This document shows positions 25,336-63,967 of a stretch of DNA of 64,000 bases, piece by piece. A program made the translations under genes and the position numbers. Origin of the DNA: a virus; the IMG/VR virus record IMGVR_UViG_3300036770_003984, positions 62,001 through 126,000 of that record, one strand, 5' to 3'. Each line of letters starts with the position of its first letter. Within the stretch, counting starts at the first letter, position 1. The notes beneath the pieces are model-generated. The model was not told the origin of the DNA and searched no databases. It worked only from the letters and a program-made list of their open reading frames with translations.

Positions 25336-25995
25336 ATGAGAATTATAATTACAGAAAGTCAAAAAAGAATGTTGTTATTCGAAATTGAAGAAAAACAATT
25401 GAATGATGAGATTGAAAATTCAATTGAGAATAACATTGACTTTACAAAAGAAATAGTAAAAGAAGCTGAAAAATTAGTAGAAGAGGGGAAGCTTCAAATT
25501 GGCCTTAATTTAAGATTTTTATTGACTTGGGGTGCTGGTGTTGGTGGGTTTATAAAACCAATATATGATTTTATTACTAATAATTTTTCTGATATAAGTG
25601 AAAAAGATAAAATCTTAATTATCATTGCAATAATGGCAACTTATTATTTTGATAATAAAGAAAAATTAATAAAAATAAAAGACGAAATTAGAAAGAGAGG
25701 GTTAAGTGAAATTATTCAAACTATCTTCACAAAAGCGGATGAATTAATAAAGGTATTTTCACAATTTTTACTTAGTTTAGGTAAAACTTTTCATAGTATT
25801 ACGAACTTATTAAGTTATGCCTTTTTGATACCAATTTTAGATAAATTAATAATTTTAATTAAAAATAGTACATTATCAACCAATGACTTGACTGAATCCC
25901 TAATGAGTTTATTAGGTTTCGGTACTTTAACCTTTGTAGGTATAGGTGTTAAAAATTTAATAGAAAATATGGTAAGAAGATTTAAGGGTAAATAA
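25336..25995 (+). CDS. tagged hydrophobic protein, 219 aa
   Basis: Tag MRIIITESQKRMLLFEIEEK (class A, ending I-E-E). The body has several hydrophobic stretches (LRFLLTWGAGVGGFIKPI, KILIIIAIMATYYF, LSYAFLIPILDKLIILI, LGFGTLTFVGIGV), suggesting a membrane-inserting or pore-like protein. If the tag directs it into the virion, it could be released at injection; that is inference. Function unknown. Confidence 0.65.
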   Translation: MRIIITESQKRMLLFEIEEKQLNDEIENSIENNIDFTKEIVKEAEKLVEEGKLQIGLNLRFLLTWGAGVGGFIKPIYDFITNNFSDISEKDKILIIIAIMATYYFDNKEKLIKIKDEIRKRGLSEIIQTIFTKADELIKVFSQFLLSLGKTFHSITNLLSYAFLIPILDKLIILIKNSTLSTNDLTESLMSLLGFGTLTFVGIGVKNLIENMVRRFKGK

Positions 25996-26049
25996 TTGAA
26001 TTTCTTAAATTATTAATTTATGTTTTGATTAAACAAATATAAATTACAT

Positions 26050-27075
26050 ATGCCTAAATTTGATTTTAAAGACATCACCTTAGTCCCAGAAACAATCACA
26101 AATATTGATTCAAGAAGTGAAATTAACATTTTAACCAAAAATTTAACCCTACCCATTATAGTCAGCCCAATGGATACTGTGGTAGATAATTCAAATTATA
26201 AAAAGTTTTTGGATAATAATTTAGAAGTTTGTTTACCAAGAGGTGAATATTCAAGTGATAATAATGTTTTTATTTCAATATCATTATCTGATTTTGAAAT
26301 TATGGTATTAAAACATAAAAAATTTGAAAAAGTACCAACATATCAAAAAATTCTTGTTGATATTGCAAATGGTCATATGTCAAAATTATATGACTTATGT
26401 AAATATTTCATTGAAAACATCAAAACTGACCACCAATTAATGATTGGTAATATTGCAAACCCAACAACATACGAAAAGTTTGCTGAACTTGGTGTTGATT
26501 ATATTCGTGTTGGTATTGGTGGTGGTTCAGGATGTCTAACATCAGCGAATACTGGTGTTCATTACCCTATGGCATCACTCATTTCAGAATGTCATCAAAT
26601 CAAAAAGAAACGAGGTTATAAAACCAATATTGTTGCTGATGGTGGATTTAGAAATTATGATGATATAATTAAAGCATTAGCCCTTGGTGCCGATTATATT
26701 ATGTTAGGCGGTGTGTTAAACAAATGTCTTGAATCTTGTTCGCCAATTTATTTCAATAAATGGATTAAATTAAATGATTCTACATCAAATTATATTTGGA
26801 ATAACTTACCATATCTTAGAAAATATATGTATAAAAAGTTTAGAGGTATGAGTACAAAAGAAGTACAAAAAAAATGGGGTAGAGATAAACTAATAACATC
26901 CGAAGGTATATCAAAATATAATAAAGTTGAATATAAATTGGATAAATGGCTTGAGAATCTACAAGATTATCTTAAATCAGCAATGTCATATACTAACTCA
27001 AGGAATTTAGAAGAATTTAAAGACACTGAATATATATTTATTACGGAGAATGCCTTAAAAAGGTATTATAAATAA
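26050..27075 (+). CDS. IMP dehydrogenase/GMP reductase family protein
   Basis: 341 residues. N-terminal FDFKDITLVPETITNIDSRS and LPIIVSPMDTV match the start of IMPDH/GMPR barrels. The catalytic loop GIGGGSGCLTSANTGVHYP has the active Cys in place, and VADGGFRNYDDIIKALALGA followed by DYIMLGG is the phosphate-binding region. No CBS domains are present, so GMP reductase-like architecture. Product would change the IMP/GMP balance in the infected cell. Substitutions around the loop (GGGSGC instead of GPGSxC) leave the exact reaction open. Confidence 0.8.
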   Translation: MPKFDFKDITLVPETITNIDSRSEINILTKNLTLPIIVSPMDTVVDNSNYKKFLDNNLEVCLPRGEYSSDNNVFISISLSDFEIMVLKHKKFEKVPTYQKILVDIANGHMSKLYDLCKYFIENIKTDHQLMIGNIANPTTYEKFAELGVDYIRVGIGGGSGCLTSANTGVHYPMASLISECHQIKKKRGYKTNIVADGGFRNYDDIIKALALGADYIMLGGVLNKCLESCSPIYFNKWIKLNDSTSNYIWNNLPYLRKYMYKKFRGMSTKEVQKKWGRDKLITSEGISKYNKVEYKLDKWLENLQDYLKSAMSYTNSRNLEEFKDTEYIFITENALKRYYK

Positions 27076-27076
27076 T

Positions 27077-27907
27077 ATGAATAAGAAAACATTAATTAGA
27101 GTTGTTGAAAATGTAGATTATTTTAATGAATCCAATTCACCTCAAGAAATTTATCTAAATCTACGTAGTTATTCTGGTGAACTATTAAATATTTTAGATG
27201 TTATGACTGGTAAAGACGTAATGTTATTTTGTTTTTTAGCTTATGAACAAAGATTTTCAGTTGATTTATCTAAATTATATGACTTTATTAGTAATAACTA
27301 CTCTGAATTTACTATTGGAGAAATTTTAAATCTTAATCCAAACAAAGAATGTTATCAATGTGATGGTAATGGTAATGTAGGTTGTACACAATGTGGTTGG
27401 GATGGAGAAGTAGATTGTTCTGAATGTGGTGGTGATGGTAAAATGGAATGTAATGTCTGTGATGGTGATGGGGTTGATAGTGATGGTGATACTTGTTATG
27501 ATTGTGAAGGTGATGGAGAAGTAAAATGTAGTAATTGTTATGGACGAGGTAGTGAAACTTGTTCTGATTGTGGAGGTGATGGTGATTTAGAATGTGAAAT
27601 ATGTGATGGTAAGGGAGAGATTAAAGCTGTTAATGAAACTTTAGTTAAAATGACTAGATATCTATCTTATGATATTAATTTCACTAAAAAATTTGAAAAT
27701 ATGGAGGAAGATGAAGTTATTTCTCCAGAATTTTATAACCGATTGTTGAGTAGAAAAAAGTTTATAGTAATTAACGATTTTGATCATCTTTTTGAAGACT
27801 ATGAACACCCTAATTATAAAGAAATGAAAGAAGATGATGTATTTTTAGTTCACGAAAAGAATCAACCTGAATTGAAACATAGTTCTGGTAAAATTAGTGT
27901 ATGGTAA
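27077..27907 (+). CDS. DnaJ-type zinc-finger protein lacking a J domain
   Basis: 276 residues. Residues about 93-190 hold eight or more CxxC modules of the CxxCxGxG type (CYQCDGNG, CTQCGWDG, CSECGGDG, CNVCDGDG, CYDCEGDG, CSNCYGRG, CSDCGGDG, CEICDGKG). DnaJ has four. There is no HPD J domain, so it cannot stimulate DnaK ATPase in the usual way; it could bind unfolded protein or act as a thiol-rich scaffold. Starts one base after the IMPDH-like gene, so co-expressed. A phage DnaK is encoded 7 kb away. Confidence 0.75.
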   Translation: MNKKTLIRVVENVDYFNESNSPQEIYLNLRSYSGELLNILDVMTGKDVMLFCFLAYEQRFSVDLSKLYDFISNNYSEFTIGEILNLNPNKECYQCDGNGNVGCTQCGWDGEVDCSECGGDGKMECNVCDGDGVDSDGDTCYDCEGDGEVKCSNCYGRGSETCSDCGGDGDLECEICDGKGEIKAVNETLVKMTRYLSYDINFTKKFENMEEDEVISPEFYNRLLSRKKFIVINDFDHLFEDYEHPNYKEMKEDDVFLVHEKNQPELKHSSGKISVW

Positions 27908-28169
27908 TTTTGACTTTCAAAATACTATTTCCTTTAATAACACGATGATAAACACCCTCTGGAATAAAATATTTCTCCCCAACAATTAATTTGATGGGGA
28001 GTTCATTATCCATTTGTAAATACCAATTATCACTTTCTAAGATTTCAACAAGTCTATTTTCTCTATCTCTATGCCATTTTAATTCTTCATCATCAACATT
28101 TTCATCAAATGTTCTGATTCTAATGTCATCAATTATTTCTTGTTGAAAGGGTAAATTTTCCATTACCAA
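27894..28169 (-). CDS. small cupin-like protein, 91 aa
   Basis: ELKWHRDRENRLVEILESDN, then WYLQMDNELPIKLIVGEKYF and IPEG-VYHRVIKGNS match the strand and His pattern of a single cupin barrel, with His at about residues 30 and 74. Could bind a metal. Starts four bases inside the upstream gene's end and converges with the zinc-finger gene, overlapping it by 14 bases. Confidence 0.55.
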   Translation of the reverse strand: MVMENLPFQQEIIDDIRIRTFDENVDDEELKWHRDRENRLVEILESDNWYLQMDNELPIKLIVGEKYFIPEGVYHRVIKGNSILKVKITIH

Positions 28170-28789
28170 CTTTTACTAGATTTTAATCCCAATTTTTTGG
28201 CATGCCTCCCAACATTGCAACTCCAGTACCCGGCCATTGTTCTGTCTTTCTTTTGGTCACAATTATGTCTCGCTCTAAATGATTTTGCAGCCTTTGGATT
28301 TCTATTTCTCACTTTAAGATTTGGATCCCCAAATGTTACTTTTTTAATTGTACCCTTTGGTGTTTTTACATATACTGCAAATTTCTTAGGACCTCCTGGT
28401 GTTCTAAATGGGGAATTTAATTTAACATTCTTTCCATGATGTTTTGCCTCAAATAAAAGTTCTTCAACTTCTTCTTCATACATTGGTGCATCCAACCAAA
28501 CCTCATCACCATTCTCTAATAATACCTTTTTACCCAAGTCAGATTCAACCAACCAAATATCATCTTCGTTTAATCTAATACTACCTTGATTGTATAAATT
28601 TCTTACTTCGTTAATTAATTTAAAATACTTGTCAGAATATATCCTAAAGATATTTTCATTCAACGATATTCTGTTCTCCAAATGATATTTTAAATCTTCA
28701 GATATTATACAAGGTTCGGTTAATGTCATTGGTGGGTTAAGAGATTCTCTCAAAACTTTTTTTATTAAGTTATCTAAACTATTGCTCAT
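28163..28789 (-). CDS. tagged protein with C-terminal FRARHNC...GYWSC motif, 208 aa
   Basis: N-terminus MSNSLDNLIKKVLRESLNPP is an amphipathic tag ending L-R-E. The centre carries WLDAPMYEEEVEELLFEAKH. The last 70 residues include KKFAVYVKTPKGTIKKVTFG, KSFRARHNCDQKKDRTMAGY and WSCNVGRHAKKLG, a motif I have seen at the C-termini of large-phage structural proteins. Three His/Cys positions (RHNC, WSC, RH) suggest metal binding. Role probably structural or morphogenetic. Confidence 0.6.
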   Translation of the reverse strand: MSNSLDNLIKKVLRESLNPPMTLTEPCIISEDLKYHLENRISLNENIFRIYSDKYFKLINEVRNLYNQGSIRLNEDDIWLVESDLGKKVLLENGDEVWLDAPMYEEEVEELLFEAKHHGKNVKLNSPFRTPGGPKKFAVYVKTPKGTIKKVTFGDPNLKVRNRNPKAAKSFRARHNCDQKKDRTMAGYWSCNVGRHAKKLGLKSSKSW

Positions 28790-28861
28790 AATTTGTTTTT
28801 TTAGATAAATATTCTTACTTTTATAATCATATATTAACTATCAAACAATTAAACAACTATT

Positions 28862-29050: not shown

Positions 29051-29059
29051 AGACTGCCA

Positions 29060-29121: not shown

Positions 29122-30774
29122 ATGAAATTAATTATAAATGAAAATCAATTAAAAAAATTGGTTAACGTTATTAAAGAGGAAAATTCAGATGGAAAATTAA
29201 ATGTATTATTTGTTGGGGATAGTTTAAGTTCAGCACCAGGTTATACTTGGAATTATAAATTAGCTGATAAAAATTCTAATAAATGGAATAGTGCCCATTT
29301 AGTTAAAGGTGGGGTTAGGACTGGCTGGATGTTGGATGAATTAAGGTCAAAATTAAATCAAGGTAAAAAATATGATTTAGTTTTTATATATGGTGGTACT
29401 AATGATATGTTTTCATTAGTCACTAAAAATGAAGCAATATCAAATATAAATAAAATGGCGGATTTAGTTGCGGAACAAGGTGGTAAAACCATTGTATTTG
29501 CTGGTTATGACGCTGAAAAAGTAATGTCTGAAAAATCGCATTCAAACGGAGGGAATTTAATGAAAACAAGGTATTGTAGTGAAGAATGTATGTTAAAGAG
29601 TAGAAAAAAAATGATTGAATTTCAAGACGCTCTTCCAAGTGAAATTTCAGGTGAAAATGTAATGGTAATACCAAAAATGCCTGGTGGTAATCCATCTTGG
29701 GCTGGTGATGGTACACACGTTGGACCTAGTGTACATAATGATATGGCTAATTATGTTAATGATAGGATTTCAGGTAAAGTAACTATAAAAGATAAAACTA
29801 AAAAAAAGGATTGGGATTGGGATTTTGGCTTTAACTTTTTAGGCGGGTTAAAAAAATATTTATCTAAATATTTGTCATCAACTTTCGGTTCTTTATTTGG
29901 TGAAAAAAAATTAACAAACAAATTTGTTTCAGATTTGGAAAAAATCACAGAACATAATATTAATAGTAATAGAATTATAAGTGAAAATAAAATTTTAGAG
30001 ATAGGTGATGTTAACGAAAAAGTTGCACTCTTCCAACTAGCGTTACAATTACTAGGATATTCCTTAAACAAATGGGGTGTTGATGGTATATTTGGTCCAG
30101 AAACAAAAAAAGCGGTTAAAGATTTTCAAAGAGATAACAATTTAGAAGAAACTGGTAAAATCACAACAAAGATTAAAAATAAAATTATTAGTATGATAAA
30201 AAATACAATAACTGATGAAGATTTTACTAAAATAAATTTCACAAAAACAGAAAGTTTACCAGCCTCCAATGCTAAAATAAGTGGGAATTCTTTTTCAAAA
30301 GTAACTGGATCTTCTAGTATTGTAGACAAATTTAAAAATGTATTGAAACAAAACAATCTTGATTATTCTAATTTTGTAAACGAATTAAATAACATTGGTC
30401 TAAATCCAAACATTGCAATTAAACAACTTTATGCTGAATCAGGATTCAGGTCAGATGTAATTAGTTGTAAAACAAAATCAAGTGCGGGGGCAGAAGGTAT
30501 TGCTCAATTTATACCATCAACTTGGGATTATTATGGGGCTGGTGGAAGTCCTTGTAATGTTAAAGACTCATTAAAAGCTTATGTTAAATTAATGAAAGAT
30601 TTAATCAAAATGTTTCCAAATAGAATTGATTTGGCTATTGCTGGTTATAATAGTGGCCCTTATTTATCAATTTATAAAAAAGCATTAAATAATGATTTAA
30701 GTTTTGACGATATAAAATATGATATACCTAGTGAAACTAGAGGTTATGTTGAAAAAATATTATTCTCAAATTAA
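29122..30774 (+). CDS. tagged SGNH hydrolase / peptidoglycan-binding / lytic transglycosylase fusion
   Basis: 550 residues. Tag MKLIINENQLKKLVNVIKEE (ends I-K-E). Residues about 28-215 are a SGNH domain: FVGDSLS, KGGVRT, YGGTND, GDGTHV, homologous to the secreted SGNH protein at 7593. Residues about 290-350 form a PG_binding_1 domain (ALQLLGYSLNKWGVDGIFGP, TKKAVKDFQR). Residues about 415-550 are an SLT-type transglycosylase domain: NPNIAIKQLYAESGF with catalytic Glu, then GAEGIAQFIPSTW and IAGYNSGP. Probably a virion-associated wall-degrading enzyme that also removes acyl groups. Own promoter; 48 bases to the next tagged gene. Confidence 0.85.
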   Translation: MKLIINENQLKKLVNVIKEENSDGKLNVLFVGDSLSSAPGYTWNYKLADKNSNKWNSAHLVKGGVRTGWMLDELRSKLNQGKKYDLVFIYGGTNDMFSLVTKNEAISNINKMADLVAEQGGKTIVFAGYDAEKVMSEKSHSNGGNLMKTRYCSEECMLKSRKKMIEFQDALPSEISGENVMVIPKMPGGNPSWAGDGTHVGPSVHNDMANYVNDRISGKVTIKDKTKKKDWDWDFGFNFLGGLKKYLSKYLSSTFGSLFGEKKLTNKFVSDLEKITEHNINSNRIISENKILEIGDVNEKVALFQLALQLLGYSLNKWGVDGIFGPETKKAVKDFQRDNNLEETGKITTKIKNKIISMIKNTITDEDFTKINFTKTESLPASNAKISGNSFSKVTGSSSIVDKFKNVLKQNNLDYSNFVNELNNIGLNPNIAIKQLYAESGFRSDVISCKTKSSAGAEGIAQFIPSTWDYYGAGGSPCNVKDSLKAYVKLMKDLIKMFPNRIDLAIAGYNSGPYLSIYKKALNNDLSFDDIKYDIPSETRGYVEKILFSN

Positions 30775-30821: not shown

Positions 30822-31367
30822 ATGAGAAAATATACTATAAATGAATTTAACATTAGAAATTCACTTAAAAAAAATTTATTAAAAGAAATTGAGTCACCTA
30901 AAAAAGATATAAAAAAAGATGGTGAGATTGAGGAAAAACCTAGATGTGTTGCTGGAAATATGATTCCGTTGGATGAAATTGTTGGTTCTGCAGATGAATA
31001 TGAAGATTATGCAACTGGAGTTAATAAAAGAAAATTAGGTGTAAATTCAATGGTTGATACTTTGGGTATTCTTAATAATATAAGACTATTCAAAGATATT
31101 AAAGATGGAGGTTCACATTTGGCATATAAACTTATGCACCATCTTAATAAATTTAGAAATAAAAATTATTTTGACGAAGCTTCAAATGAATGTAAAAAAG
31201 CTATGAACAAAATAACAGAACTTTATAAAGAAAATGAACACGGAACTGAGCTTGTTAAAGACATTGAAAGAGTTTTAAATCTTCAAACAAAAGATGATGA
31301 ATATACACCATCACCAAGAGCAAAAGAATATTTAAAAAGATGTGTTGAACTTGCAAAAGGTAAATAA
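30822..31367 (+). CDS. tagged hypothetical protein, 181 aa
   Basis: N-terminus MRKYTINEFNIRNSLKKNLL then KEIE, a Lys-rich amphipathic tag with an L-K-E site. The rest is helical and charged; CVAGNMIPLDEIVGSADEYE and a C-terminal KEYLKRCVELAKGK are recognisable only as phrases. Follows the lysin gene and ends at a strong terminator. Possible internal virion protein. Confidence 0.65.
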   Translation: MRKYTINEFNIRNSLKKNLLKEIESPKKDIKKDGEIEEKPRCVAGNMIPLDEIVGSADEYEDYATGVNKRKLGVNSMVDTLGILNNIRLFKDIKDGGSHLAYKLMHHLNKFRNKNYFDEASNECKKAMNKITELYKENEHGTELVKDIERVLNLQTKDDEYTPSPRAKEYLKRCVELAKGK

Positions 31368-31486: not shown

Positions 31487-32941
31487 ATGAAGAATAATTT
31501 AAACGAAGAATTAAATAGATTAAAATTCCTATTGGGTTATAAACCCGGACAACTTATGACCGAAAGTCAAGTCAAAGAAACTTATTTAAGTGAACAAAGT
31601 AGAGGATTCAGACGAACTCCTGAACCTACAAATACTCCACAACAACCATTTGACCGACAAGCTGATCTTGACGCATATGAAAGAACACGAGAAGCTCCAC
31701 CTTCAATTACTACTAGAATAAACACAAACCAAGGTGTTCAAAACTTTGAAGTTGATTTTTCTAATTATCCTCAAGACAATACAATAACTACGAAACAAGT
31801 AAGATTTTTTGATAAAATTGGATATCTTAAAATTGATTCAAATATTGTAAGATTTAAACCACCAAAAGAAACAAAAACTATAATTCCTGGTTACACTAAA
31901 GAAAAAACAATTATACCAAAATTTGAATACACAACAATTCAAGGTCAATCATTTAGGGATAATTTTATAGGTATTGATAAAAACGTTACCAATTCTTTAA
32001 TACAAAATGCTAGAGAATTAAATAAAACATTCAGAGAAATTTACCAACTAAAACCAACCGAAGCTTTAGAAAATATTAAAAAATTTCTTAACAGAGGATT
32101 TGAATTAGAAGGTCATGCTGATGGTAATATACCTTCGGCAACAAGATTAAATCAAACAGACCACGCTAATTTTGGAAATGGTCAATTATATGGTGGAAAT
32201 ACAACTCCTAATTCTAAAAATACTTGGTTAGCTGAACAAAGAGCTCGTAATGCTTATAATATCTTTATGAAAGAATTGTCAAGATTATTAAAAACCACAT
32301 TTTATGATAATTCTGAAATAATTGAACTTATTACAAATATTTTAACAATAGGTGGTGGATATACGACATTAAACGTAGTTGATCACTTAAATCAAAATGG
32401 GACTAGGAATTCAAGAGAAATTGGTCCAGAATATAAAAGATTTGAGTTTAAACCAACATTTAAAACAAATATACCAATTCCTATATCAACATTTGTTCCA
32501 CCTACAGAAAAAATTGAAGTAGAAAAAGGCGATGAAGTCGGTAACGTTTCAATATATTTATATGAATATAATCAAGATATTCTTATTCCTGGTATGGTAT
32601 ATTTTGACAACAATCTTTTTAGTCAAAATGATAAATGGGTTGGTGTTACTAAGGATGTTTTAGAAAAATATAAAATTCCAATACTTAGTGATGGTAAGTT
32701 AAATGGTAGTCCTACACATAGAGCTATGATTGATGAAAATATGCGAGCGACAATAGGTGATTTACAATTTGGTACATTTGATAGAAAAAGAGTGAGTGAC
32801 GCTACAAATTTAGCACAAGCTGCAGGCCCTTTAATTCATAATACAACAATAAATAGTGCTAGAAAGGTAATCGAAGGTGTAACATATTACAAGGTATCTT
32901 ATGCTAATTTAATAATTAGTACTATGCCACCTAAAAAGTAG
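31487..32941 (+). CDS. tagged OmpA-like protein, 484 aa
   Basis: N-terminus MKNNLNEELNRLKFLLGYKP belongs to tag class D (LNEELNRxxxLxG), followed by TYLSEQ. The middle has FELEGHADGNIPSATRLNQT and LAEQRARNAYNIFMKELSRL, resembling OmpA C-terminal domains (GHxD, then RAxxxxxxL), which bind peptidoglycan. The C-terminal 150 residues are beta-rich and unassigned. Suggests a cell-wall-binding virion or effector protein. OmpA assignment is moderate. Confidence 0.6.
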   Translation: MKNNLNEELNRLKFLLGYKPGQLMTESQVKETYLSEQSRGFRRTPEPTNTPQQPFDRQADLDAYERTREAPPSITTRINTNQGVQNFEVDFSNYPQDNTITTKQVRFFDKIGYLKIDSNIVRFKPPKETKTIIPGYTKEKTIIPKFEYTTIQGQSFRDNFIGIDKNVTNSLIQNARELNKTFREIYQLKPTEALENIKKFLNRGFELEGHADGNIPSATRLNQTDHANFGNGQLYGGNTTPNSKNTWLAEQRARNAYNIFMKELSRLLKTTFYDNSEIIELITNILTIGGGYTTLNVVDHLNQNGTRNSREIGPEYKRFEFKPTFKTNIPIPISTFVPPTEKIEVEKGDEVGNVSIYLYEYNQDILIPGMVYFDNNLFSQNDKWVGVTKDVLEKYKIPILSDGKLNGSPTHRAMIDENMRATIGDLQFGTFDRKRVSDATNLAQAAGPLIHNTTINSARKVIEGVTYYKVSYANLIISTMPPKK

Positions 32942-48978: not shown

Positions 48979-49134
48979 TCATCTTGGGGATTTCTTATCA
49001 TCAATAAAACGTTTTATTATTTTCTTAAAATCAGTTTCACCTGACATATTTAGTTTATTGGTTATAATACTTTTTGTACCTTTTAATTGGTGATATAAAT
49101 CCCAATCCCAAATTGATTTATTTTCTATTCTCAT
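48979..49134 (-). CDS. small protein with NKSIWDW module, 51 aa
   Basis: ATG 49134 (MRIENKSIWDWDLYHQLKGT) overlaps the stop of the tagged gene before it as ATGA. The first 20 residues match the C-terminal module of the 211-residue protein at 50760 (ENKSIWDWEMYQKIHGKNS), so this is a free-standing copy of that module. The last codons overlap an AATCCCC...GGGGATT hairpin that probably terminates the transcript. Confidence 0.55.
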   Translation of the reverse strand: MRIENKSIWDWDLYHQLKGTKSIITNKLNMSGETDFKKIIKRFIDDKKSPR

Positions 49135-51429: not shown

Positions 51430-51657
51430 TTAATCCCAAGAATATGGGTCTTCAGAACTTGGGCTTATATAATAAGTACTATTATCACCATTAAATTTCA
51501 AAAGTACAGACCCATCCTTATCTATTGTAAAAGTTCCTGATTTACCTACGGCACGTCTAGCATCGTCAGGATTGAAATTTGGAATTGCTCCTTCATTAAT
51601 TACTCTCATAACTAATCTAGTTAAATCACTTTCTGTTAATCTTATTGTCCTTTTCAT
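51430..51657 (-). CDS. tagged small protein, class B tag, 75 aa
   Basis: MKRTIRLTESDLTRLVMRVI then NEG is class B with I-N-E. After the tag only about 50 residues remain (ARRAVGKSGTFTIDKDGSVL, LKFNGDNSTYYISPSSE). Because the tag is almost a third of the protein, it may be the functional address. Octamer ATATTTAT upstream. Confidence 0.65.
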   Translation of the reverse strand: MKRTIRLTESDLTRLVMRVINEGAIPNFNPDDARRAVGKSGTFTIDKDGSVLLKFNGDNSTYYISPSSEDPYSWD

Positions 51658-51695: not shown

Positions 51696-52475
51696 TTATT
51701 TAAAAATGTATGTACCAATTAATTGCCCATCATTACTTTTAATAGAAATTCCAGGTAATTGACCTCCACTCATATCATTAGTTGTTTCACTATATTCATA
51801 ATTATGTACTCCACCTGAAAAACCTCTTCCACCAACATTATTTTTTTTAAGATATTTTAAAAAATCTCTATCTGGATATTTTATAGCAATATCATTAATT
51901 TTTTCAATTAGTGGATAAGTTAGATTTTGATATTGTATAGTACCTTTTGGATTTGTCATAAAATATTGTTTATCAAAAATAGTTGGTGTACTACCTTGGG
52001 TGTTATTATTAACACCTTGTGTTTTTGTCGACAATCCACTACTATTTAATTTGGTTTCATTTAACATTAATGAGTTAAATTTACCATTAACCCCAATATA
52101 AGCTCCATTCTTACCAATTACAATTCTAACCGAACCCCTAGTATTAATTGGTTCTTTCCAAAATAATACATAACCCGTATCAACACCTTTGGGTGTTTTT
52201 ATAAATACATAATCTTGTGTACCTTCACCAATATATTCACCATCAGGTATATAAACAACCCCAACATCACTTAAATACCAAGAAGTAATATCTTTATATC
52301 CTTGTTTTATTAGTTCATCTTTAAAATTTTGTTCATTAATCAATGGTCTTACATCACCTAATTGAGATTTCATTAATTGATTGAATCTTTTTGTTTCAAT
52401 AATTAATGAATTATTATATTGTTCCAATATTCTATTTTTTTCTGATTGACTTAAATCATTAAATAAATTTTTCAT
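51696..52475 (-). CDS. tagged hypothetical protein, class C tag, 259 aa
   Basis: MKNLFNDLSQSEKNRILEQY then GDVRPLINEQ shows class C (SEKNRILExY) with a later I-N-E. The body is beta-rich (GVVYIPDGEYIGEGTQDYVF, KTPKGVDTGYVLFW) and includes a Gly/Ser-rich stretch (VGGRGFSGGVHNYEYSE). Possible outer virion or envelope-contact protein. Octamer upstream at about 52505 (minus). Confidence 0.65.
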   Translation of the reverse strand: MKNLFNDLSQSEKNRILEQYNNSLIIETKRFNQLMKSQLGDVRPLINEQNFKDELIKQGYKDITSWYLSDVGVVYIPDGEYIGEGTQDYVFIKTPKGVDTGYVLFWKEPINTRGSVRIVIGKNGAYIGVNGKFNSLMLNETKLNSSGLSTKTQGVNNNTQGSTPTIFDKQYFMTNPKGTIQYQNLTYPLIEKINDIAIKYPDRDFLKYLKKNNVGGRGFSGGVHNYEYSETTNDMSGGQLPGISIKSNDGQLIGTYIFK

Positions 52476-52544: not shown

Positions 52545-53993
52545 TTACGACCGAAGGGAGAGATAATTTTCTTTACCCATGTCACCCAAATTTTTAATAA
52601 ATCCTTTTTCAGTCTCACCAATGAAATTCAAAAATTTATAGAAATCATTTTTATTGGTTTTCAAATAGTATATTCCAAATAAATCAATTAAATCGGATTT
52701 TTCCATAAATTCATTTTTAATATCCTTTTTAATAAATTTTTCAACAAAAAACATTTCAGGGATTTTATTATAACCAATTTCATTTAATAATTCCAAATCA
52801 TAATAAAAACGATATTGTCTTGGATTGGATTTAATCAACATCAAAATAAATCTATTAATGTCCAATTCCAATAGGTAATCAAACTTATTTTTATTTTCTC
52901 CCTTAATTAATTCGTAATCCCCACTTGAAAATTTTGAAAAAATAGCTTGATTTGGATCATTCTTACGAAGTTTAAAAAATGTTTCTAACCTTTCATCCAA
53001 AATTTTATTATACCTATTCAACAATTTACCATCTTGTTTTATTAATTCAACTTGATTATTTGTTAATGAAACCCCAAGATTCATATACTTATTCTTCAAA
53101 TCCGATGGTAAACTCTGAAATTGTTTATCCGTTAATGTATTAATTAATGTTACATAAACATCAATATAATATTCCTTGTCCTTATAACTTAATTTGGAAA
53201 ACTCCTCATCATTTAATCCATCCTTAAATCTTTCATATTTTCCCTTCTCATCATCACCCAATGGAACATTCTTAAAGTAATCCTGTAATCCATTTAATTC
53301 TGGGGCAATTCCCAATATTTGTTCCCAACTCATTTTTTTATCCCCATCATTCAATGCCGATGTAACAACATATTCACCACCCTTCAAAACTTGTATAACA
53401 AAGAAATGCCACTTATCCCTAAAATCGCCTTCAAACTTTTTTCCAGATGTATTCCAATAATTAAATTCATTATCAGTTGCACCCTTCCTCTTAACAAAAT
53501 AAAATGATGGTTCAGTTTCACCCATCCTATATCTCATATACATATTTGAAGCATCACTCCTAGATACACACCAACTATATGGTTTATTACCCTTATACTC
53601 AACACAGGATTGTCTATTTGGTGCATAATATATCTCAACCTTTTCATTCTCAAATATTGGTTTCCCATCAACCTTTATATCCTCAAAATTTGCTGAACCA
53701 AAATTCCTCTGTCCAGCCATATAATCAACAACCAATTCCAATTCCTTGAATGTCTTATATTGGTCAATGTCATATCTTTTCATCCCCTTCTCAATATTCA
53801 ATCCATCCAAGTCAGCATTCTCCAACTCCTTATACTTCTTATCCTTAATCTCCCTAAAATCATTCAAGTACTTATCAACAATCCCCTCATCATTCCCCTG
53901 TTGAATAAATTTATTTTTTTGTGTCTTGAAATCTTCATTAATTACCCCATTAATTAATTTCCTCAATTGAGATTCCGTTATTATAATTTTCAT
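52545..53993 (-). CDS. tagged protein with YSWCVSR motif, 482 aa
   Basis: Class A tag MKIIITESQLRKLINGVINE (I-N-E). Middle: YYAPNRQSCVEYKGNKPYSW, CVSRSDASNMYMRYRMGETE, PSFYFVKRKG; SW-C followed by an aromatic strand is a signature I associate with virion proteins of large phages but cannot name. The C-terminal half has repeated DEEFSKLSYKDKEYYIDVYV-type helices. Ends with LSLRS. Likely internal virion protein. Confidence 0.65.
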   Translation of the reverse strand: MKIIITESQLRKLINGVINEDFKTQKNKFIQQGNDEGIVDKYLNDFREIKDKKYKELENADLDGLNIEKGMKRYDIDQYKTFKELELVVDYMAGQRNFGSANFEDIKVDGKPIFENEKVEIYYAPNRQSCVEYKGNKPYSWCVSRSDASNMYMRYRMGETEPSFYFVKRKGATDNEFNYWNTSGKKFEGDFRDKWHFFVIQVLKGGEYVVTSALNDGDKKMSWEQILGIAPELNGLQDYFKNVPLGDDEKGKYERFKDGLNDEEFSKLSYKDKEYYIDVYVTLINTLTDKQFQSLPSDLKNKYMNLGVSLTNNQVELIKQDGKLLNRYNKILDERLETFFKLRKNDPNQAIFSKFSSGDYELIKGENKNKFDYLLELDINRFILMLIKSNPRQYRFYYDLELLNEIGYNKIPEMFFVEKFIKKDIKNEFMEKSDLIDLFGIYYLKTNKNDFYKFLNFIGETEKGFIKNLGDMGKENYLSLRS

Positions 53994-54796: not shown

Positions 54797-55174
54797 TTAT
54801 GTCACTTGACAATATTTTGATTTTATTATTGCCTCAACTTTTTCGTTGAATCTCATATCAATAGATCCTATCCTTTTATTTGTTTTTCCTGTCAAAACCA
54901 CTAAACCTGTTTTACAGTCAAAAAAGGAAAACCCACTCCAAGGTTCATTGGACTTATCCAATAGTGATTCTGCTACAACATCAAATTTTATTTTGAGAGT
55001 ATTTTGTTCTTCAATTGTTTCCAAATATTTTAAAACTATTTGGTTAGCAAATTCCGTATCATGTCTATCTTTGTCATAAAGATATGTAGTATATGTCTCA
55101 TCATTTGATTCATTTATTATCCTTTTAACTAATCTAGTTAAATCACTTTCTGTTAATCTTACTATTCTTCTCAT
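54797..55174 (-). CDS. tagged protein, class B tag, 125 aa
   Basis: MRRIVRLTESDLTRLVKRII then NES, near-identical to the tags at 38803 and 51430, with I-N-E. The body is a compact beta domain (TYTTYLYDKDRHDTEFANQI, GFSFFDCKTGLVVLTGKTNK). Octamer-like TATATTTATATATA upstream. Function unknown; strong tag case. Confidence 0.7.
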   Translation of the reverse strand: MRRIVRLTESDLTRLVKRIINESNDETYTTYLYDKDRHDTEFANQIVLKYLETIEEQNTLKIKFDVVAESLLDKSNEPWSGFSFFDCKTGLVVLTGKTNKRIGSIDMRFNEKVEAIIKSKYCQVT

Positions 55175-57413: not shown

Positions 57414-58073
57414 ATGAGAGTAATAATAAGTGAGGAACAATATAGATACATTCTTGAGAATGAGGAGGAGTTAACCAATAAACCAATTGATAAAAATCTA
57501 TTGGAAATATCTGTGGATGAGTTTTTACCAATTTGGAGTATTTTTATAAAAACATATAAGAAGAAGGGATATGATGGGTTAAAATTATATGGTGATTTGG
57601 ATTTAAGTAAATTAGATGTTGAAGATATTGAAAAGATATTAAATGAGGTCGTTATAGTTACAGGTAATTTGGATTTACGATATACAGATATAACAACATT
57701 AGGTAAATTAGAATCTGTTGGGGGTAATTTGAACTTGATTTTGAATGATATTAAATCACTGGGTAATTTAAAATATGTTGGGGGTTATTTATCTTTGAAG
57801 GAAACATCAATAACATCTTTGGGTAATTTAGAAAAAGTTGGAACCGCTTTATATTTGGAGGGTACACCAATAACATCTTTGGGTGAATTGAAATCGGTTG
57901 GGGATGATTTGGATTTAGATTTTAGTAAAATTAAAAGTTTGGGAAATCTTAAATCAGTTGGAGAAGATTTGTATTTAAGGCGTACTCCACTTGGAAAAAA
58001 ATTAAAAGAAAGTGGAATGAGTGAAGATGAAATTAAAAATAAATTTGGTGTTAAAGGTAATTTATATCTATGA
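57414..58073 (+). CDS. tagged leucine-rich-repeat-like protein, 219 aa
   Basis: Class A tag MRVIISEEQYRYILENEEEL. From about residue 75 there are five or more repeats of about 21-23 residues built on ITSLGNLxxVGxxLxLxxT (for example TDITTLGKLESVGGNLNLIL, TSITSLGNLEKVGTALYLEG), an LRR-like solenoid. Stop overlaps the start of the next gene (ATGA). First gene of an eight-gene rightward array. Likely a binding protein; ligand unknown. Confidence 0.75.
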   Translation: MRVIISEEQYRYILENEEELTNKPIDKNLLEISVDEFLPIWSIFIKTYKKKGYDGLKLYGDLDLSKLDVEDIEKILNEVVIVTGNLDLRYTDITTLGKLESVGGNLNLILNDIKSLGNLKYVGGYLSLKETSITSLGNLEKVGTALYLEGTPITSLGELKSVGDDLDLDFSKIKSLGNLKSVGEDLYLRRTPLGKKLKESGMSEDEIKNKFGVKGNLYL

Positions 58074-58594
58074 GAGTAATAATAAGTGAGAGTCAGTATA
58101 GACAAATTATTGAATCTGAGAATAAGATTAGTGATAGGAAGTTAAAGATATATAAAGACACCATTGATGAAATTGGACTTGAGTTGGCTGGACATGCGTT
58201 AAGTAAAGGATTATGGGAATTTATTGAGATGGGTTTGGTTAAACATTATAATGAGTATTTGGATTTAGATGGGACACCGATTAAGACATTGGGTAATTTA
58301 AAATCAGTTGATGGTAGTGTGGATTTACGTAATACATCAATTGAAGATTTGGGTAATTTAACCTCAATTGAGAATGATTTATTCTTAATGTTCATACCTA
58401 CTATTAAATCATTAGGAAATTTGAAATCAGTTGGTGGTGATTTGTATTTAAATAATTGTGAAAATTTAACATCATTGGGTAATTTGAATAAAGTTGGTGG
58501 TAATTTGTATTTAAGAAATACCCCAATATCAAAAACAATGTCAAAATATGATATAAAGAGAAAAATAAAAGTTAGGGGTGAAATTTTAATATGA
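58070..58594 (+). CDS. tagged leucine-rich-repeat-like protein, 174 aa
   Basis: Tag MRVIISESQYRQIIESENKI (I-I-E). The helix module (YKDTIDEIGLELAGHALSKG, LWEFIEMGLV) follows, then repeats such as IKTLGNLKSVDGSVDLRNTS and IKSLGNLKSVGGDLYLNNCE. ATGA overlaps on both sides. Paralogue of the preceding and following genes. Confidence 0.75.
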   Translation: MRVIISESQYRQIIESENKISDRKLKIYKDTIDEIGLELAGHALSKGLWEFIEMGLVKHYNEYLDLDGTPIKTLGNLKSVDGSVDLRNTSIEDLGNLTSIENDLFLMFIPTIKSLGNLKSVGGDLYLNNCENLTSLGNLNKVGGNLYLRNTPISKTMSKYDIKRKIKVRGEILI

Positions 58595-59178
58595 GAATAA
58601 TAATAAGTGAGAGTCAGTATAGACAGATTATTGAGAATGAGGAAAACTCATTTGATTATAACTTATATCCATTGGATTTGAATGATATTGTTGGGGATGA
58701 TATTGAAGAGATATTAGTTAAGGGGTATAGACGTTTTAATAAATTTCGTACATCTTTTGATGGTATAATGATAATAGGTTATTTTGATTTATCATATGTT
58801 TATAATGATGATGTGAAGGAAATATTAAAAGAATTAGTTATGGTTGTTGGTAATTTTGAGATTTTTAATAGACGTGTTGATTTACCAAAATTAAAAATGG
58901 TAAAAGGTAGTTTAATATTAGAAAATACTAAAATGAAATCTTTACCTGAATTAGAATATGTTGATGGGTCTTTAAAACTTCATAGTTCTAGTATTGAATC
59001 ATTACCTAAATTAAAAAAAGTTGGTGTGGAATTGGATTTAAGGAATACTAAAATAGCTGAATTACCTAGTTTGGAATTTGTTGGTGGTGATTTACATACT
59101 GGTGAATCCCCACTCGCTAAATTAAATTTTAGGGATTTTAGAAGTAAGATAAAAATTTTAGGAGGAATAAGTAAATAA
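58591..59178 (+). CDS. tagged repeat protein, 195 aa
   Basis: Tag MRIIISESQYRQIIENEENS. Repeats diverge to LPKL/LPEL variants: MKSLPELEYVDGSLKLHSSS, IESLPKLKKVGVELDLRNTK, IAELPSLEFVGGDLHTGESP. Same solenoid type with Pro instead of Gly after L. Starts in the ATGA overlap of the previous gene. Confidence 0.75.
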   Translation: MRIIISESQYRQIIENEENSFDYNLYPLDLNDIVGDDIEEILVKGYRRFNKFRTSFDGIMIIGYFDLSYVYNDDVKEILKELVMVVGNFEIFNRRVDLPKLKMVKGSLILENTKMKSLPELEYVDGSLKLHSSSIESLPKLKKVGVELDLRNTKIAELPSLEFVGGDLHTGESPLAKLNFRDFRSKIKILGGISK

Positions 59179-59179: not shown

Positions 59180-59785
59180 ATGAAAATAATAATTAATGAA
59201 GAACAATTAAGACAGATTATTGAATCTAGGTATTTGAGGAGTACACCCAAATTAAGGGAATCGATTAACAAGTATTTGGATGATTATGTGTCGAGTGGTA
59301 ATAGAAAGATTGGGAAGAAATCTCGTAACTATGGTAATCTTCGTGAGGATTGGTGTGTTGATGGGGTTAAAGTTATAACTATGATATATTATTTTGTGGA
59401 TGGTAAATTTGAGAATGGGACTTTGCTTATATCTAAAGATGTTCTTAAAACAATACAACAAATGTTTAGTGTAAGAGAGTCATTTGCATTAAATACAATT
59501 GAGGAGTGGTATGAAGATACAATGATACCCAAGTTTGAGGAAATTGTTGGTGAGTCAGGGTTTTATATTACTGAGATTGATAAAGTTAGTAGTAACCCTT
59601 GTGTTCCTGAACCTGTTAAACCTGAAGGTATTACAGATGAGGAGATGATTGACTTCATTGATAAAAACACGGGATATAATAGACAAAAGATTATAGATAA
59701 GATTGAATCTGGTGAGAGAGAATTGGAGGATTTTTATTTGGATATTGTTGATACTGTTAATATGAAAAAAATATATGGAATATGA
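59180..59785 (+). CDS. tagged hypothetical protein, 201 aa
   Basis: Tag MKIIINEEQLRQIIESRYLR. The body has NYGNLREDWCVDGVKVITMI and NTIEEWYEDTMIPKFEEIVG, the latter like the ExxxWYxxxxxPxxxxI segment of the 59782 and 60980 proteins. C-terminal helix bundle ending NMKKIYGI. Overlaps the next gene by ATGA. Function unknown. Confidence 0.7.
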   Translation: MKIIINEEQLRQIIESRYLRSTPKLRESINKYLDDYVSSGNRKIGKKSRNYGNLREDWCVDGVKVITMIYYFVDGKFENGTLLISKDVLKTIQQMFSVRESFALNTIEEWYEDTMIPKFEEIVGESGFYITEIDKVSSNPCVPEPVKPEGITDEEMIDFIDKNTGYNRQKIIDKIESGERELEDFYLDIVDTVNMKKIYGI

Positions 59786-60480
59786 AAATAATAATAAATG
59801 AAAGACAGTTAAGACAGATTATTGAATCTGAGGATAAGGTTAAAAAAAATTTAAGGGCTTATAAAATTGCCATTGATGAATATGGAATTTATGATGCAGC
59901 TAGAATATTAAGTAAAACAATTATTGAGTTATATGAACTTGGTCTTTTTGATATTCCCACAGCAATTAAACAATTGGGTTTACATGAAACATCAGAGTTT
60001 TTAGATATACCTACGCTTGAATTACTTAAAAAGATTGACTACGATATTAGTGAAATAAAACCATTTGACTTGTTTCCAGTATTGTTTGAAATGGATAAGT
60101 ATTATAAGGGTGGTGAAATTGATGTTAATTGGGACGATGAAAATAGTTATTTTGTTACTTGGTCATCAGATTTTAAAATAGGTGAATATTTAATCGGTTG
60201 TGCAACAATGGCTCTTCCTGAATTTGAGGGTAAAGATAAGGGTAAAGTGTATGTTGAGAATTCTCATTGTTGGGTTGATAATAATTTAACAACATCTGAT
60301 TTTAATAATGTTTTTGATTATGATGTTAAAACAATTGATTTTGATATTCCCACCGAATTTGAGAGTTGGGATGTTATGGTTGAATGGTATAAGACTGAAT
60401 ATAAGCCAAATGTTTATAAGATAATGAAAGAACAAGCGTTTGAGATAATTAAACAATTGAAAAGAAAAGGCGAAATATAA
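59782..60480 (+). CDS. tagged hypothetical protein, 232 aa, paralogue of 60980
   Basis: Tag MKIIINERQLRQIIESEDKV followed by helix module LRAYKIAIDEYGIYDAARIL, SKTIIELYELGLFD. C-terminal beta domain includes NSYFVTWSSDFKIGEYLIGC and ESWDVMVEWYKTEYKPNVYK. The same order and many identical residues recur at 60980-61678, so this is a duplicate pair separated by one gene. Confidence 0.7.
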   Translation: MKIIINERQLRQIIESEDKVKKNLRAYKIAIDEYGIYDAARILSKTIIELYELGLFDIPTAIKQLGLHETSEFLDIPTLELLKKIDYDISEIKPFDLFPVLFEMDKYYKGGEIDVNWDDENSYFVTWSSDFKIGEYLIGCATMALPEFEGKDKGKVYVENSHCWVDNNLTTSDFNNVFDYDVKTIDFDIPTEFESWDVMVEWYKTEYKPNVYKIMKEQAFEIIKQLKRKGEI

Positions 60481-60983
60481 TGAAAATAATAATTAACGAG
60501 AGTCAGTTGAGACAGATTATTGAATCTAAAAAAAATATTAGGGCATATAAACTAATGGTTGATGAACTTGGATTAAAGAACGCATCAGAACAATTGGGAA
60601 TACCTGTATATAAATTAATTGAGATGGGTGCTGTTGAAAAATCTTTATTTCAAAATACATTAAATGAAACACTTAAAATGTTAAAGGATGCTGCTGAAGA
60701 AGAGCCTAGGGATTTTCGTCCTATTTTCTCGGAAAATATTGATAATGTTGAAAGTATTGATATTGAAAGTTTTGATAATGAAGAAATTCGTAATAATATA
60801 AAACTAATTATTAATGTTGTTGTAACACTTGATGTTGATATTCCATTTGGAAAATGGGAAGCTATTGCAGAAATATTTGATGAATTACAATATTATATGA
60901 AAAGAAAACTGATGACTTATATTAAATTAAAATTGGCTGATAATGGTGTTAAAATATTAAATAATATTGAAAGGGATATATGA
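60480..60983 (+). CDS. tagged hypothetical protein, 167 aa
   Basis: Tag MKIIINESQLRQIIESKKNI and helix module RAYKLMVDELGLKNASEQLG, IPVYKLIEMGAVE. The C-terminal half is different (KLIINVVVTLDVDIPFGKWE, AIAEIFDELQYYM). First base overlaps the stop of the preceding gene. A mosaic of shared N-terminus and new C-terminus. Confidence 0.7.
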   Translation: MKIIINESQLRQIIESKKNIRAYKLMVDELGLKNASEQLGIPVYKLIEMGAVEKSLFQNTLNETLKMLKDAAEEEPRDFRPIFSENIDNVESIDIESFDNEEIRNNIKLIINVVVTLDVDIPFGKWEAIAEIFDELQYYMKRKLMTYIKLKLADNGVKILNNIERDI

Positions 60984-61678
60984 AAATAATAATTAATGAG
61001 AATCAATTAAGACAGATTATTGAATCTGAGGATAAGACTAGAAAAAATTTAAAGGCTTATAAAATTGCGATTGATGAATATGGAATTTATGCCGCTTCTA
61101 GAATATTGGATAAAACAATTATTGAGTTATATGAACTTGGTCTTTTTGATATTGAGGAATTAAGAAAATTAGTAAATGAATATGGTTTTTACGATATTGC
61201 TGAATCTCAAGGAATGTCAAAACTTAAACTTGCAAAAATGGTTGATTTGCCAATTAAAAGTCATAGTAATAATGATAATGAAATTTTTGTTCGTCAATTA
61301 TTAAAAGAATTGGTTGAGATTGATGATGTATATAATGAATGTGATTTAATTTATAATTCTTTTTCTGGAACTATAAATTGGAGTTGTAGATTTGATGATG
61401 GTAATCAAATAATTAATACACTAACTTATGCAACCCCTTATTTTAACGAAGATGATACTGGTAGAACACCTATTGAAACTGATGAGTTTGAGGTTATCAA
61501 AGATGATGAAAAAGAAGAATATGGTACTATGAGTGGTATTTATTTCAATACTATTCATAGTCCAAGTGAGTTTAAGAATGTTGATAAATTAATTCATTGG
61601 TTTGAGAATGACTATAAACTTGATGTATATAAAACAATAAAAACACATCTTAAAGATTTTAAGGAAAGATATACATAA
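60980..61678 (+). CDS. tagged hypothetical protein, 232 aa, paralogue of 59782
   Basis: Tag MKIIINENQLRQIIESEDKT and LKAYKIAIDEYGIYAASRIL, DKTIIELYELGLFD, then a second helix module copy (LRKLVNEYGFYDIAESQGMS, KLKLAKMVDLP). C-terminal domain: GTINWSCRFDDGNQIINTLT, YATPYFNEDDTG, KNVDKLIHWFENDYKLDVYK. Same length as 59782. Confidence 0.7.
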   Translation: MKIIINENQLRQIIESEDKTRKNLKAYKIAIDEYGIYAASRILDKTIIELYELGLFDIEELRKLVNEYGFYDIAESQGMSKLKLAKMVDLPIKSHSNNDNEIFVRQLLKELVEIDDVYNECDLIYNSFSGTINWSCRFDDGNQIINTLTYATPYFNEDDTGRTPIETDEFEVIKDDEKEEYGTMSGIYFNTIHSPSEFKNVDKLIHWFENDYKLDVYKTIKTHLKDFKERYT

Positions 61679-61681
61679 TAT

Positions 61682-62551
61682 ATGAAAATAATAATTAATG
61701 AGAATCAATTAAAACAGATTATTGAATCTGAGAATAAAATTAACAAATTTTTTGAGAAATACTTAAAAAGTGAATTTGGTCGTAATGAAAATTTTAAAGA
61801 GGGAGATAAAGTTTATATCCCAATGGATAAATATTATGGAACAATATTAACAATTAAAGGAAATAGTGTTGAATTAGATACACCAATGGGAATAGAAGTT
61901 AAAGACATTTCAGAACTTGAAAAAAAACCAATGCAAAATGTAATTGAATTTGGGGGATTGGAATTGAAATTTAATTATAATAAAGATACTACTGATATGG
62001 AGTGGTCAATTGATAATCCAAATGATGTGTCTTATCTTAGAAGTGGAATTTCTGGTTTTATTGATGAACTAGTTGATGATTTTGCAAATATAACTTCACG
62101 TGAATATTATAAACAAATAAATAGAAAACAATTATTTGTTAATATGATAAGAAAAGGAGTATACATAAATGCTGTTGATCGTGAACAATTTTTAAAATTG
62201 GCGCAAAAACCAAAAAAATATCATTATGATAATGTTAGAGCCAGATTAAATGTATTTGATATAGATTTTGAGGATGATGGTGGTCGAGGATTGGGGATAA
62301 ATATACATATGAAATTGACTGACCCAATTGACCCAAAGACTGGAGAAAAACTTACATATAATGAAGTTGGAGAAAGATTACGTGGTTTGAATGAAGATGA
62401 TGATTTTCTTGAATATATTGATGCCTTATTTAATGATTTGGCTAGTGAGATATATGACAATCGTCCAACAATATTTGACCCAAATAGTATGTATATTAGT
62501 ATATACCCTTATTTTTATACAGATGAAGGAAAACAAATGAAACATTGGTAA
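61682..62551 (+). CDS. tagged hypothetical protein, 289 aa
   Basis: Tag MKIIINENQLKQIIESENKI. Residues about 40-80 (EGDKVYIPMDKYYGTILTIK, GNSVELDTPMGIEV) look like an SH3-type fold. The rest has GGLELKFNYNKDTTDMEWSI, RLNVFDIDFEDDGGRGLGIN and IHMKLTDPIDPKTGEKLTYN. Last tagged gene of the array; followed one base later by a membrane protein gene. Function unknown. Confidence 0.7.
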   Translation: MKIIINENQLKQIIESENKINKFFEKYLKSEFGRNENFKEGDKVYIPMDKYYGTILTIKGNSVELDTPMGIEVKDISELEKKPMQNVIEFGGLELKFNYNKDTTDMEWSIDNPNDVSYLRSGISGFIDELVDDFANITSREYYKQINRKQLFVNMIRKGVYINAVDREQFLKLAQKPKKYHYDNVRARLNVFDIDFEDDGGRGLGINIHMKLTDPIDPKTGEKLTYNEVGERLRGLNEDDDFLEYIDALFNDLASEIYDNRPTIFDPNSMYISIYPYFYTDEGKQMKHW

Positions 62552-62552
62552 T

Positions 62553-63038: not shown

Positions 63039-63048
63039 TTTGGTAATA

Positions 63049-63522
63049 CTATTCCTCCCAATTATCACTAAAAGGACTGCTAATATTAAGGATTGGTCTA
63101 TCTTCAAATTCTTTTTTATATCTTGTATTTAAATAATCAATAAACATTTGTTTGTATTCTTCGTAAGTTAAAGATAACAAATCTTTTGCTATTGATTTAA
63201 GTGGTCTAAAAAATCTATTATCACTAATAAAAAAATATCCATAATTATTTCTACCACACATAATTTCCCCATTATAATACCATTCAAAACTAATTAAATC
63301 AGGTTCTTTTTTTAATGTAAATTTATCAAATACTTCATCAAATTCGTTTTTTAGAATTTTAATTCTTTTACTTTCCTTCTTTGAATTATCATTTCCACAT
63401 TTGTGACATAGATATGGTTCATCACCACCTTCAGAGAATTTCCAAGACCAACCACATTTACAGGTTATCTTTTTATCAAATTCTTCTCTTAATATTCTTC
63501 TTATTGTTTGTTGTAGTTTCAT
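63049..63522 (-). CDS. tagged zinc-ribbon protein, 157 aa, paralogue of 63569
   Basis: Start at ATG 63522 (MKLQQTIRRILREEFDKKIT); the longer frame opens with a run of Met codons from a CAT repeat and is implausible. The tag IRRILREE has an L-R-E. Residues about 21-46 form a zinc ribbon (CKCGWSWKFSEGGDEPYLCH, KCGND). The body (KILKNEFDEVFDKFTLKKEP, LISFEWYYNG, IDYLNTRYKKEFEDRPI) matches the neighbour at 63569, which has a different tag. Confidence 0.7.
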   Translation of the reverse strand: MKLQQTIRRILREEFDKKITCKCGWSWKFSEGGDEPYLCHKCGNDNSKKESKRIKILKNEFDEVFDKFTLKKEPDLISFEWYYNGEIMCGRNNYGYFFISDNRFFRPLKSIAKDLLSLTYEEYKQMFIDYLNTRYKKEFEDRPILNISSPFSDNWEE

Positions 63523-63568
63523 ATTATATTTCTTACTTTTAAAATCTAATGAAACATTGGTAATGTTG

Positions 63569-63967
63569 TTACCAATCATCATCATCAAAAAATGTAATTG
63601 ATTTATCTATTTCACGAATGGGTTTTTTATCAAATTCTTCTTTATATCTTGTATTCAAATAATCAATTAATGTTTTTTCATATTCTTCATTAGTTAATGA
63701 TAAATTCTTTACTAAGGATTTAATTGGTTTGATAAAACTAAATTCTTCAATAAAGAACATACCCCAATGATTCTTCTCAAATGCTTTGTTTCCATCATTA
63801 TCTAACCATTGATATGCGATAAGTTCTGGTTCATTTGGGTAAAGTCTTTCAATTGTTAGGTTATTGAATATTTCATCTAATTCATTTTTTAGAATTTTAA
63901 GTCTTTTACTTTCATTAAGAGTCCCCATCATTTCTTGGATTCTATTTAATTGTTCTTGTAGATTCAT
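63569..63967 (-). CDS. tagged protein, class D tag, 132 aa, paralogue of 63049
   Basis: Tag MNLQEQLNRIQEMMGTLNES (class D, ending L-N-E). Body KILKNELDEIFNNLTIERLY, ELIAYQWLDNDG, IDYLNTRYKEEFDKKPIREI aligns with the body at 63049, but there is no zinc ribbon and the tag differs. Evidence that tags are exchangeable modules on one body. Confidence 0.7.
   Translation of the reverse strand: MNLQEQLNRIQEMMGTLNESKRLKILKNELDEIFNNLTIERLYPNEPELIAYQWLDNDGNKAFEKNHWGMFFIEEFSFIKPIKSLVKNLSLTNEEYEKTLIDYLNTRYKEEFDKKPIREIDKSITFFDDDDW

Follow-up and report, generated by a model that had tools for sequence, protein, structure and literature searches.

In T4, Alt and the internal proteins enter the prohead core by means of a capsid-targeting sequence (CTS) of 10–20 residues, which gp21 then removes (PMC5694885). 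The internal proteins are injected and highly diverse, with the CTS as their only common part (PMC3012670), and Ip1-3, which likewise have only this leader in common, are injected anti-restriction proteins that block different type IV restriction enzymes (PMC12373910). Here, we describe a 64,000-nucleotide stretch, C1:62001-126000 of the 128,541-base virus record IMGVR_UViG_3300036770_003984 (the window, to which positions refer unless another record is named), in which each of 29 open reading frames (ORFs) located from 25336 to 63967 begins with a short N-terminal sequence drawn from a small set; these sequences are referred to below as tags. These tags are very probably cleavable capsid-targeting propeptides that are T4-like in their logic, mostly unlike T4 in sequence, and divided into several parallel families. 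Each cargo would be made as a precursor whose N-terminal tag of 12–30 residues carries it into the assembling prohead core, and the phage's own gp21-type protease would cut after I/L-x-E, as at the capsid site LINE/A (the slash marks a predicted cleavage site throughout), to release the mature cargo in the head. When the phage next infects a cell, this cargo would probably leave the head together with the DNA. Prohead loading, cleavage, location in the virion and injection are steps that we infer. The cargo would probably comprise accessory proteins, by analogy anti-defence factors, together with cell-wall enzymes used for entry and some head-associated proteins.

As in T4 (IPI, IPII, IPIII and Alt, with gp21), a short N-terminal peptide ending in L/I-x-E is common to non-homologous proteins, the bodies vary while the tag stays, and the same genome encodes a gp21-type protease and a gp23 with a matching propeptide site. 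Unlike T4, there are several parallel tag families instead of MKTYQEFIAE, about 20–44 tagged proteins per genome as opposed to three internal proteins and Alt, a probable Bacteroidota host, and a lytic transglycosylase fusion among the tagged bodies. The logic of T4-type capsid targeting is thus known, and what appears to be new is the variety of tag sequences and their far greater number. Comparable to the system proposed here, inner-head proteins of phiKZ, SPN3US and 201phi2-1 carry N-terminal propeptides that a prohead protease removes. Most of those propeptides exceed 100 residues, and they have A/S/T-x-E motifs and share their start on paralogues, with the first 15 residues of SPN3US gp53 and gp54 being identical (PMC5694885), whereas the present tags are about 12–30 residues long, end at I/L/V-x-E and stand on unrelated bodies, and so do not belong to that long type.

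Sharing of the tags beyond chance

With gene starts taken from a simple caller, all 29 tagged ORFs begin with ATG, and the first 62 kb of the record contain at least another four (C1:27811, 31516, 33972 and 35118). Class A tags begin MKIIITESQLR, and class B tags read RLTESDLxRLVKRVINE. Class C tags open with EEEKxRILxLH and continue to KxQYLxE/Q (43759 has MKKISDKEKQRILELHHKTPMKPYLFE/H), and therefore run beyond the RILExH at which a preliminary description of this DNA had ended them. The class D pattern of that description is present as NEELNRxKxLLGY, but the tag extends further, to GYxRGxVISE/Q (GYKPGQLMTE/S at 31487). A further type consists of short amphipathic N-termini (LxxIIRRILRE). 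Some class A tags are followed by a second module of about 40 residues (IDEYGxxxAAxxLSKxxxELxELG), found in the window at 49131, 49603, 58070, 59782, 60480 and 60980 and also in two larger relatives, G015 (296 kb) and G009 (272 kb). Stretches similar to this module also occur downstream of class E tags in relatives.

Sharing was measured by an all-against-all comparison of the N-terminal 32 residues of every called protein, counting pairs with a BLOSUM62 score of at least 48 after pairs with matching bodies had been excluded. The record itself (G000, 128.5 kb) gave 55 N-terminal pairs among 26 proteins, while mid-protein, C-terminal and shuffled segments gave none, which bears out the earlier claim that about 30 proteins share a few tags. 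The same count reached 119 in G015, 50 in G009, 30 in G004 (229 kb), 90 in a 200-kb part of LR756508 (484 kb) and 10 in the isolated Flavobacterium phage immuto, with 0–3 control pairs across the genomes tested. Immuto's 10 pairs include one signal-peptide pair and one fibre pair, and a few pairs in relatives are likewise not tags, such as those of fibre proteins in G004. In crAss001, phi14:2 and RM378, the test found no N-terminal pairs. In T4, it found two, one of them IPII/IPIII, whose shared MKTYQEFIAE is known to be the capsid-targeting sequence; the blind test therefore has a positive control.

Counted as proteins, tags occur on 20–44 per genome in the relatives of 229–296 kb (44/338 in the largest of these) and on at least 29 in the 484-kb phage. 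A class B DNA pattern matches 65 stretches in IMG/VR. A tblastn search of isolate phages with short tags gave no match for class B, and for the immuto tag it matched immuto alone; text searches of open-access full texts for the tag sequences found no paper. The tagged proteins of immuto lie at record positions 117631 (MADNFNLRSFLTENKLTKNAQLLKE/GSD), 118632, 1803, 103806, 25061 and 111675.

Tag boundaries and tag swapping

A motif [ILVMF]-x-E follows residue 8 within the first 45 residues in 29/29 tagged ORFs, and in 28 of them it falls at residues 12–28, the ORF at 50202 having it only at 39. For an estimate against chance, classes were redefined by the first half of the tag only, each body cluster was counted once, and the motif was sought within 22 residues. 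It was found in 60/63 body clusters of class B (a loose first-half pattern, which also admits some tags of LR756508 and a few members that are doubtful), 29/32 of class A and 15/15 of class C, 104/110 in total, where shuffled means were 33.7, 15.3 and 6.6 (total 56) and the observed count in every class exceeded that of each of 1000 shuffles. These figures also bear on the idea that the tags are labels for a different destination or partner, such as the tail, the baseplate, a membrane or a phage replication compartment, with I/L-x-E marking no more than where an amphipathic helix stops. We regard this as unlikely. A helical appearance is common to most tags, and the periodicity of class B makes the control motif [ILVMF]..E enriched there too; yet class C is enriched for [ILVMF]-x-E and not for [ILVMF]..E (123/1000 shuffles reach the observed count), tags are swapped at the E, and this motif also closes the capsid propeptide. 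Neither the endolysin nor the holin recognised in the window has a tag, and the tags contain no hydrophobic signal-peptide core.

The boundary can be seen from both sides. Across 33 unrelated bodies with class B (RLTESDL) tags, each column carries about 2–3 bits as far as the E, against about 0–0.4 from P2' on, in a profile whose pattern itself required the terminal motif. Near the tag end, the column with the greatest freedom is P2 (N/K/S), as in an I/L-x-E site. Conversely, some bodies are conserved under different tags. The protein at 52545–53993 (−) carries the class A tag MKIIITESQLRKLINGVINE, ending in GVINE, before DFKTQ. LR756511, a phage of 595 kb, encodes a relative with 49% identity that starts with MEFREWFRSAETRTINE/DFKTQ, a different tag exchanged at the same junction; the end of this relative's gene and the capsid gene are 3.4 kb apart. 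A family whose body starts YMFFSNLEQM bears class A, class B and short helical tags, and in a family starting ATSxxGSRGSF, conservation begins at the residue after xxE, with variable tags before it. Conserved tags on variable bodies and conserved bodies behind variable tags thus meet at the same point. Common descent, in which the tags would be conserved opening segments of true domains belonging to a small number of expanded families, would fit the 40-residue module common to some class A proteins and the several paralogous bodies. It is nevertheless very unlikely to be the explanation, since class B stands on 33 body clusters that lack detectable similarity and conservation stops at the E, body-related pairs had been removed before counting, and the same body is seen with different tags. 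The preliminary description had held that tags lying inside larger globular domains would speak against its proposal, and what is found for several bodies is a sharp boundary at the E.

At the nucleotide level, the synonymous sites of class A tags are strongly diverged (pS 0.61–0.74) while the peptide is kept (pN 0.08–0.17, pN/pS 0.11–0.28, with pN biased downward because the tags were picked by pattern). This combination argues for a function of the peptide. It leaves hardly any probability for a recombination or expression cassette spread as DNA with no role for the peptide, an idea that would suit the position of the tags exactly at gene starts and their marking of tandem gene clusters.

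Head protease, capsid protein and host

The preliminary description had suggested looking elsewhere in the genome for a prohead protease, and the record does encode a Peptidase_S77 prohead protease (E=5e-24; PHROG head maturation protease), with Peptidase_S78 absent from the record. It also encodes a gp23 capsid protein, the precursor of which has a propeptide ending around residue 60 with LINE/A; [FHQY]LINE/A is kept in the displayed capsid relatives (80 fetched, 79 aligned). Among tagged records of at least 120 kb, 11/14 have Peptidase_S77, and the remaining three also lack gp23, so that the head module is probably missing from them. The protease was found in 1/12 random viral contigs, only 4 of which reach 120 kb (Fisher p=0.0005 overall, 0.08 length-matched). 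Taken together, a tag boundary at I/L-x-E, swapping at that point, and S77 and gp23 with the same motif in one record support, at sequence level, the T4-like reading that had been proposed earlier, as does the blind recovery of the T4 sequence.

The host is probably a member of the Bacteroidota. A ribosomal protein S21 gene (PF01165, E=1e-12) lies at record C1:41907-42098 (+) (L006:1907-2098), on the opposite strand within the terminase-portal-protease-capsid block. According to passages of PMC9723584 found by keyword, S21 in the head block is a hallmark of freshwater bS21 phages predicted to infect Bacteroidetes, and the same opposite-strand arrangement places the present phage with them as far as those passages go; they describe the structural genes and S21 and do not mention targeting tags. 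The protein encoded at 13326–14663 (−) has a C-terminal sorting domain of type IX secretion (Por_Secre_tail, E=2.6e-13). It is possibly secreted by the host, and its domain agrees with a Bacteroidota host.

Several observations weigh against propeptides of the T4 kind. No virion proteome for this clade was found in open-access full texts. Upstream of tagged genes, enrichment of the T4-type late promoter TATAAATA is not convincing: it lies within 60 nt of 5/18 tagged and 5/66 untagged operon heads, a weak difference for a motif moderately above expectation. RM378 has Peptidase_S77 without detected shared tags, and the protease alone is therefore no predictor of tags. Some tags have no clear site, as in the divergent N-terminus MKSYRINEKFSNKQIKG at 50202–50699 (−), whose G009 relative reads MKELIRHILKE/ET, and in the class A/C hybrid MKKIIISENEKRRILNKHYGDVNQELFE/YLK at 40864–41328 (−), where the site is uncertain. 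Several bodies are untagged in relatives, among them the phrog_7595-like body at 28163–28789 (−; class E, MSNSLDNLIKKVLRE/SLNPP), whose relatives in G004 and immuto have no clear tag. The ORF at 24790–25287 (−) has a class C-resembling N-terminus, MNKAERNDILDQH, that lacks L-x-E and is kept in G015, and it may be a counterexample to class C or its source domain. The sole usable structure model, of the YMFFSNLEQM family, is moderately confident (mean pLDDT 69) and little informative; it shows the tag as a helix of its own, and it has no match in the PDB. The model of the ATSxxGSRGSF family has a mean pLDDT of 47. Finally, the tags are not homologous to the T4 CTS, and profile A1 matches nothing in T4; the claim is accordingly that they work like the CTS, not that they belong to its sequence family. 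T4-like MKTF.EW tags were seen only in LR756511 (MKTFSEWLE and MKTFAEWME), which links the T4 CTS to the present tags. Mimicry of a gp22-like scaffold by the tags was considered and rejected, with the scaffold ranking about 33rd–145th in five genomes and first only in immuto.

Tagged proteins and their possible roles

Most tagged bodies have no family match, the exceptions being an SGNH-like, peptidoglycan-binding and SLT transglycosylase fusion and the LRR-like proteins. The fusion, at 29122–30774 (+), bears the class A/B tag MKLIINENQLKKLVNVIKE/ENSDG, combines SGNH-like (under its Pfam cut-off), PG_binding_1 and SLT parts, and agrees with the lysin fusion reported previously. Also upheld were the LRR bodies, by a near-threshold Pfam match and visible repeats. 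Three further assignments fell away: a caspase-like body (E=0.072) and an HExxH/SprT body (E=0.071) are unsupported, and the OmpA domain was not found in family searches. The earlier view that the bodies are unrelated holds for the most part, body-related pairs having been removed before the count, and fails for the LRR-like trio, two paralogue pairs (59782/60980 and 63049/63569) and the class A proteins that share the second module. Recognisable genes of the window without a tag encode IMPDH, HSP70, a tRNA synthetase, FKBP, a phosphoesterase, the endolysin and the holin.

Class A opens the series of tagged ORFs at 25336–25995 (+; MRIIITESQKRMLLFE/IEEKQ), on a body without an assigned family that has same-tag relatives in G009 and G015 and a single weak SduA/DUF4263 match in PADLOC. 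A row of class A genes on the minus strand comprises 45473–46831 (MKRLIITENEKLYIKKLYNIINE/QYQE), 46866–48371 (MKKLIITENEKFHIKKLYNLITE/DPID), 48368–48940 (MKIILNETQYKKLIKKLINE/DKNY, with its ATG at 48940), and 49131–49595 (MRIIISESQYKFLISE/SKFD) and 49603–50205 (MKIIITERQYRLILE/DKSS), both with the second module. On the plus strand, the LRR-like paralogues at 57414–58073 (MRVIISEEQYRYILE/NEEE), 58070–58594 (MRVIISESQYRQIIE/SENK) and 58591–59178 (MRIIISESQYRQIIE/NEEN) are followed by 59180–59785 (MKIIINEEQLRQIIE/SRYL), which has relatives tagged MRNLIKLILE and MRSIIKKILRE, and by 59782–60480 (MKIIINERQLRQIIE/SEDK), 60480–60983 (MKIIINESQLRQIIE/SKKN), 60980–61678 (MKIIINENQLRQIIE/SEDK) and 61682–62551 (MKIIINENQLKQIIE/SENK).

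Class B tags are found at 38803–39189 (+; MKKIVRLTESDLIRLVKRVINE/QSQF), 51430–51657 (−; MKRTIRLTESDLTRLVMRVINE/GAIP) and 54797–55174 (−; MRRIVRLTESDLTRLVKRIINE/SNDE), and relatives of the protein at 30822–31367 (+; MRKYTINEFNIRNSLKKNLLKE/IESPK) in G015 and G009 have class B-like tags. Class C is represented at 43759–45450 (−; MKKISDKEKQRILELHHKTPMKPYLFE/HNPTY). A possible double tag at 51696–52475 (−) consists of a class C-like part (SQSEKNRILE to LIIE) and a class F-like RFNQLMKSQLGDVRPLINE/QNF, the latter resembling a further tag class in G015 and G009. Class D occurs at 31487–32941 (+; MKNNLNEELNRLKFLLGYKPGQLMTE/SQVK) and at 63569–63967 (−; MNLQEQLNRIQEMMGTLNE/SKRL), and the second of these has a body paralogous to that at 63049–63522 (−) under a different, class E tag (MKLQQTIRRILRE/EFDK). 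A loose helix, MNNKLKNIKLANILLE/QKYL, opens 42509–42838 (−; ATG at 42838).

In relatives, G004 encodes at L176:16449-18695 a tagged protein of 748 residues (MKIIITESQYRQIIKE/SG). It contains a SET domain (E=7.9e-9), gives a weak match to DHH phosphoesterase, and is a candidate for unusual phage cargo. In LR756508, a tagged gene row with a common YRGT-like motif adjoins the capsid gene (C1:177696-183575; L181, L182) and may encode packaged enzymes; an identification of tagged proteins of this phage as Alt-like ADP-ribosyltransferases was dropped for want of Pfam support. Elsewhere in the window, 24 tRNA genes lie on a single strand at 4331–20127 (−), and a DUF2828/DUF7788 protein at 20734–22194 (−) has a 301-aa ORF on the opposite strand.

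A broader proposal, which we put forward tentatively and hold to be possible without being the likelier outcome, is that large Bacteroidota phages have a general head-loading system in which at least six interchangeable tag families mark about one tenth of the proteome, including cell-wall enzymes, and perhaps differ in where or when during head assembly they send their cargo. If the tags are indeed capsid-targeting propeptides, a simple sequence rule would predict which uncharacterised proteins of a large and abundant phage group are carried by the virion and are probably the first to enter the host, and dozens of hypothetical genes per genome would become candidate injected effectors. Immuto, as an isolated phage with its own tag set, allows a direct test. 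Ultimately, T4-style capsid targeting would prove to be widespread, with tag sequences that change and a cleavage motif that stays.

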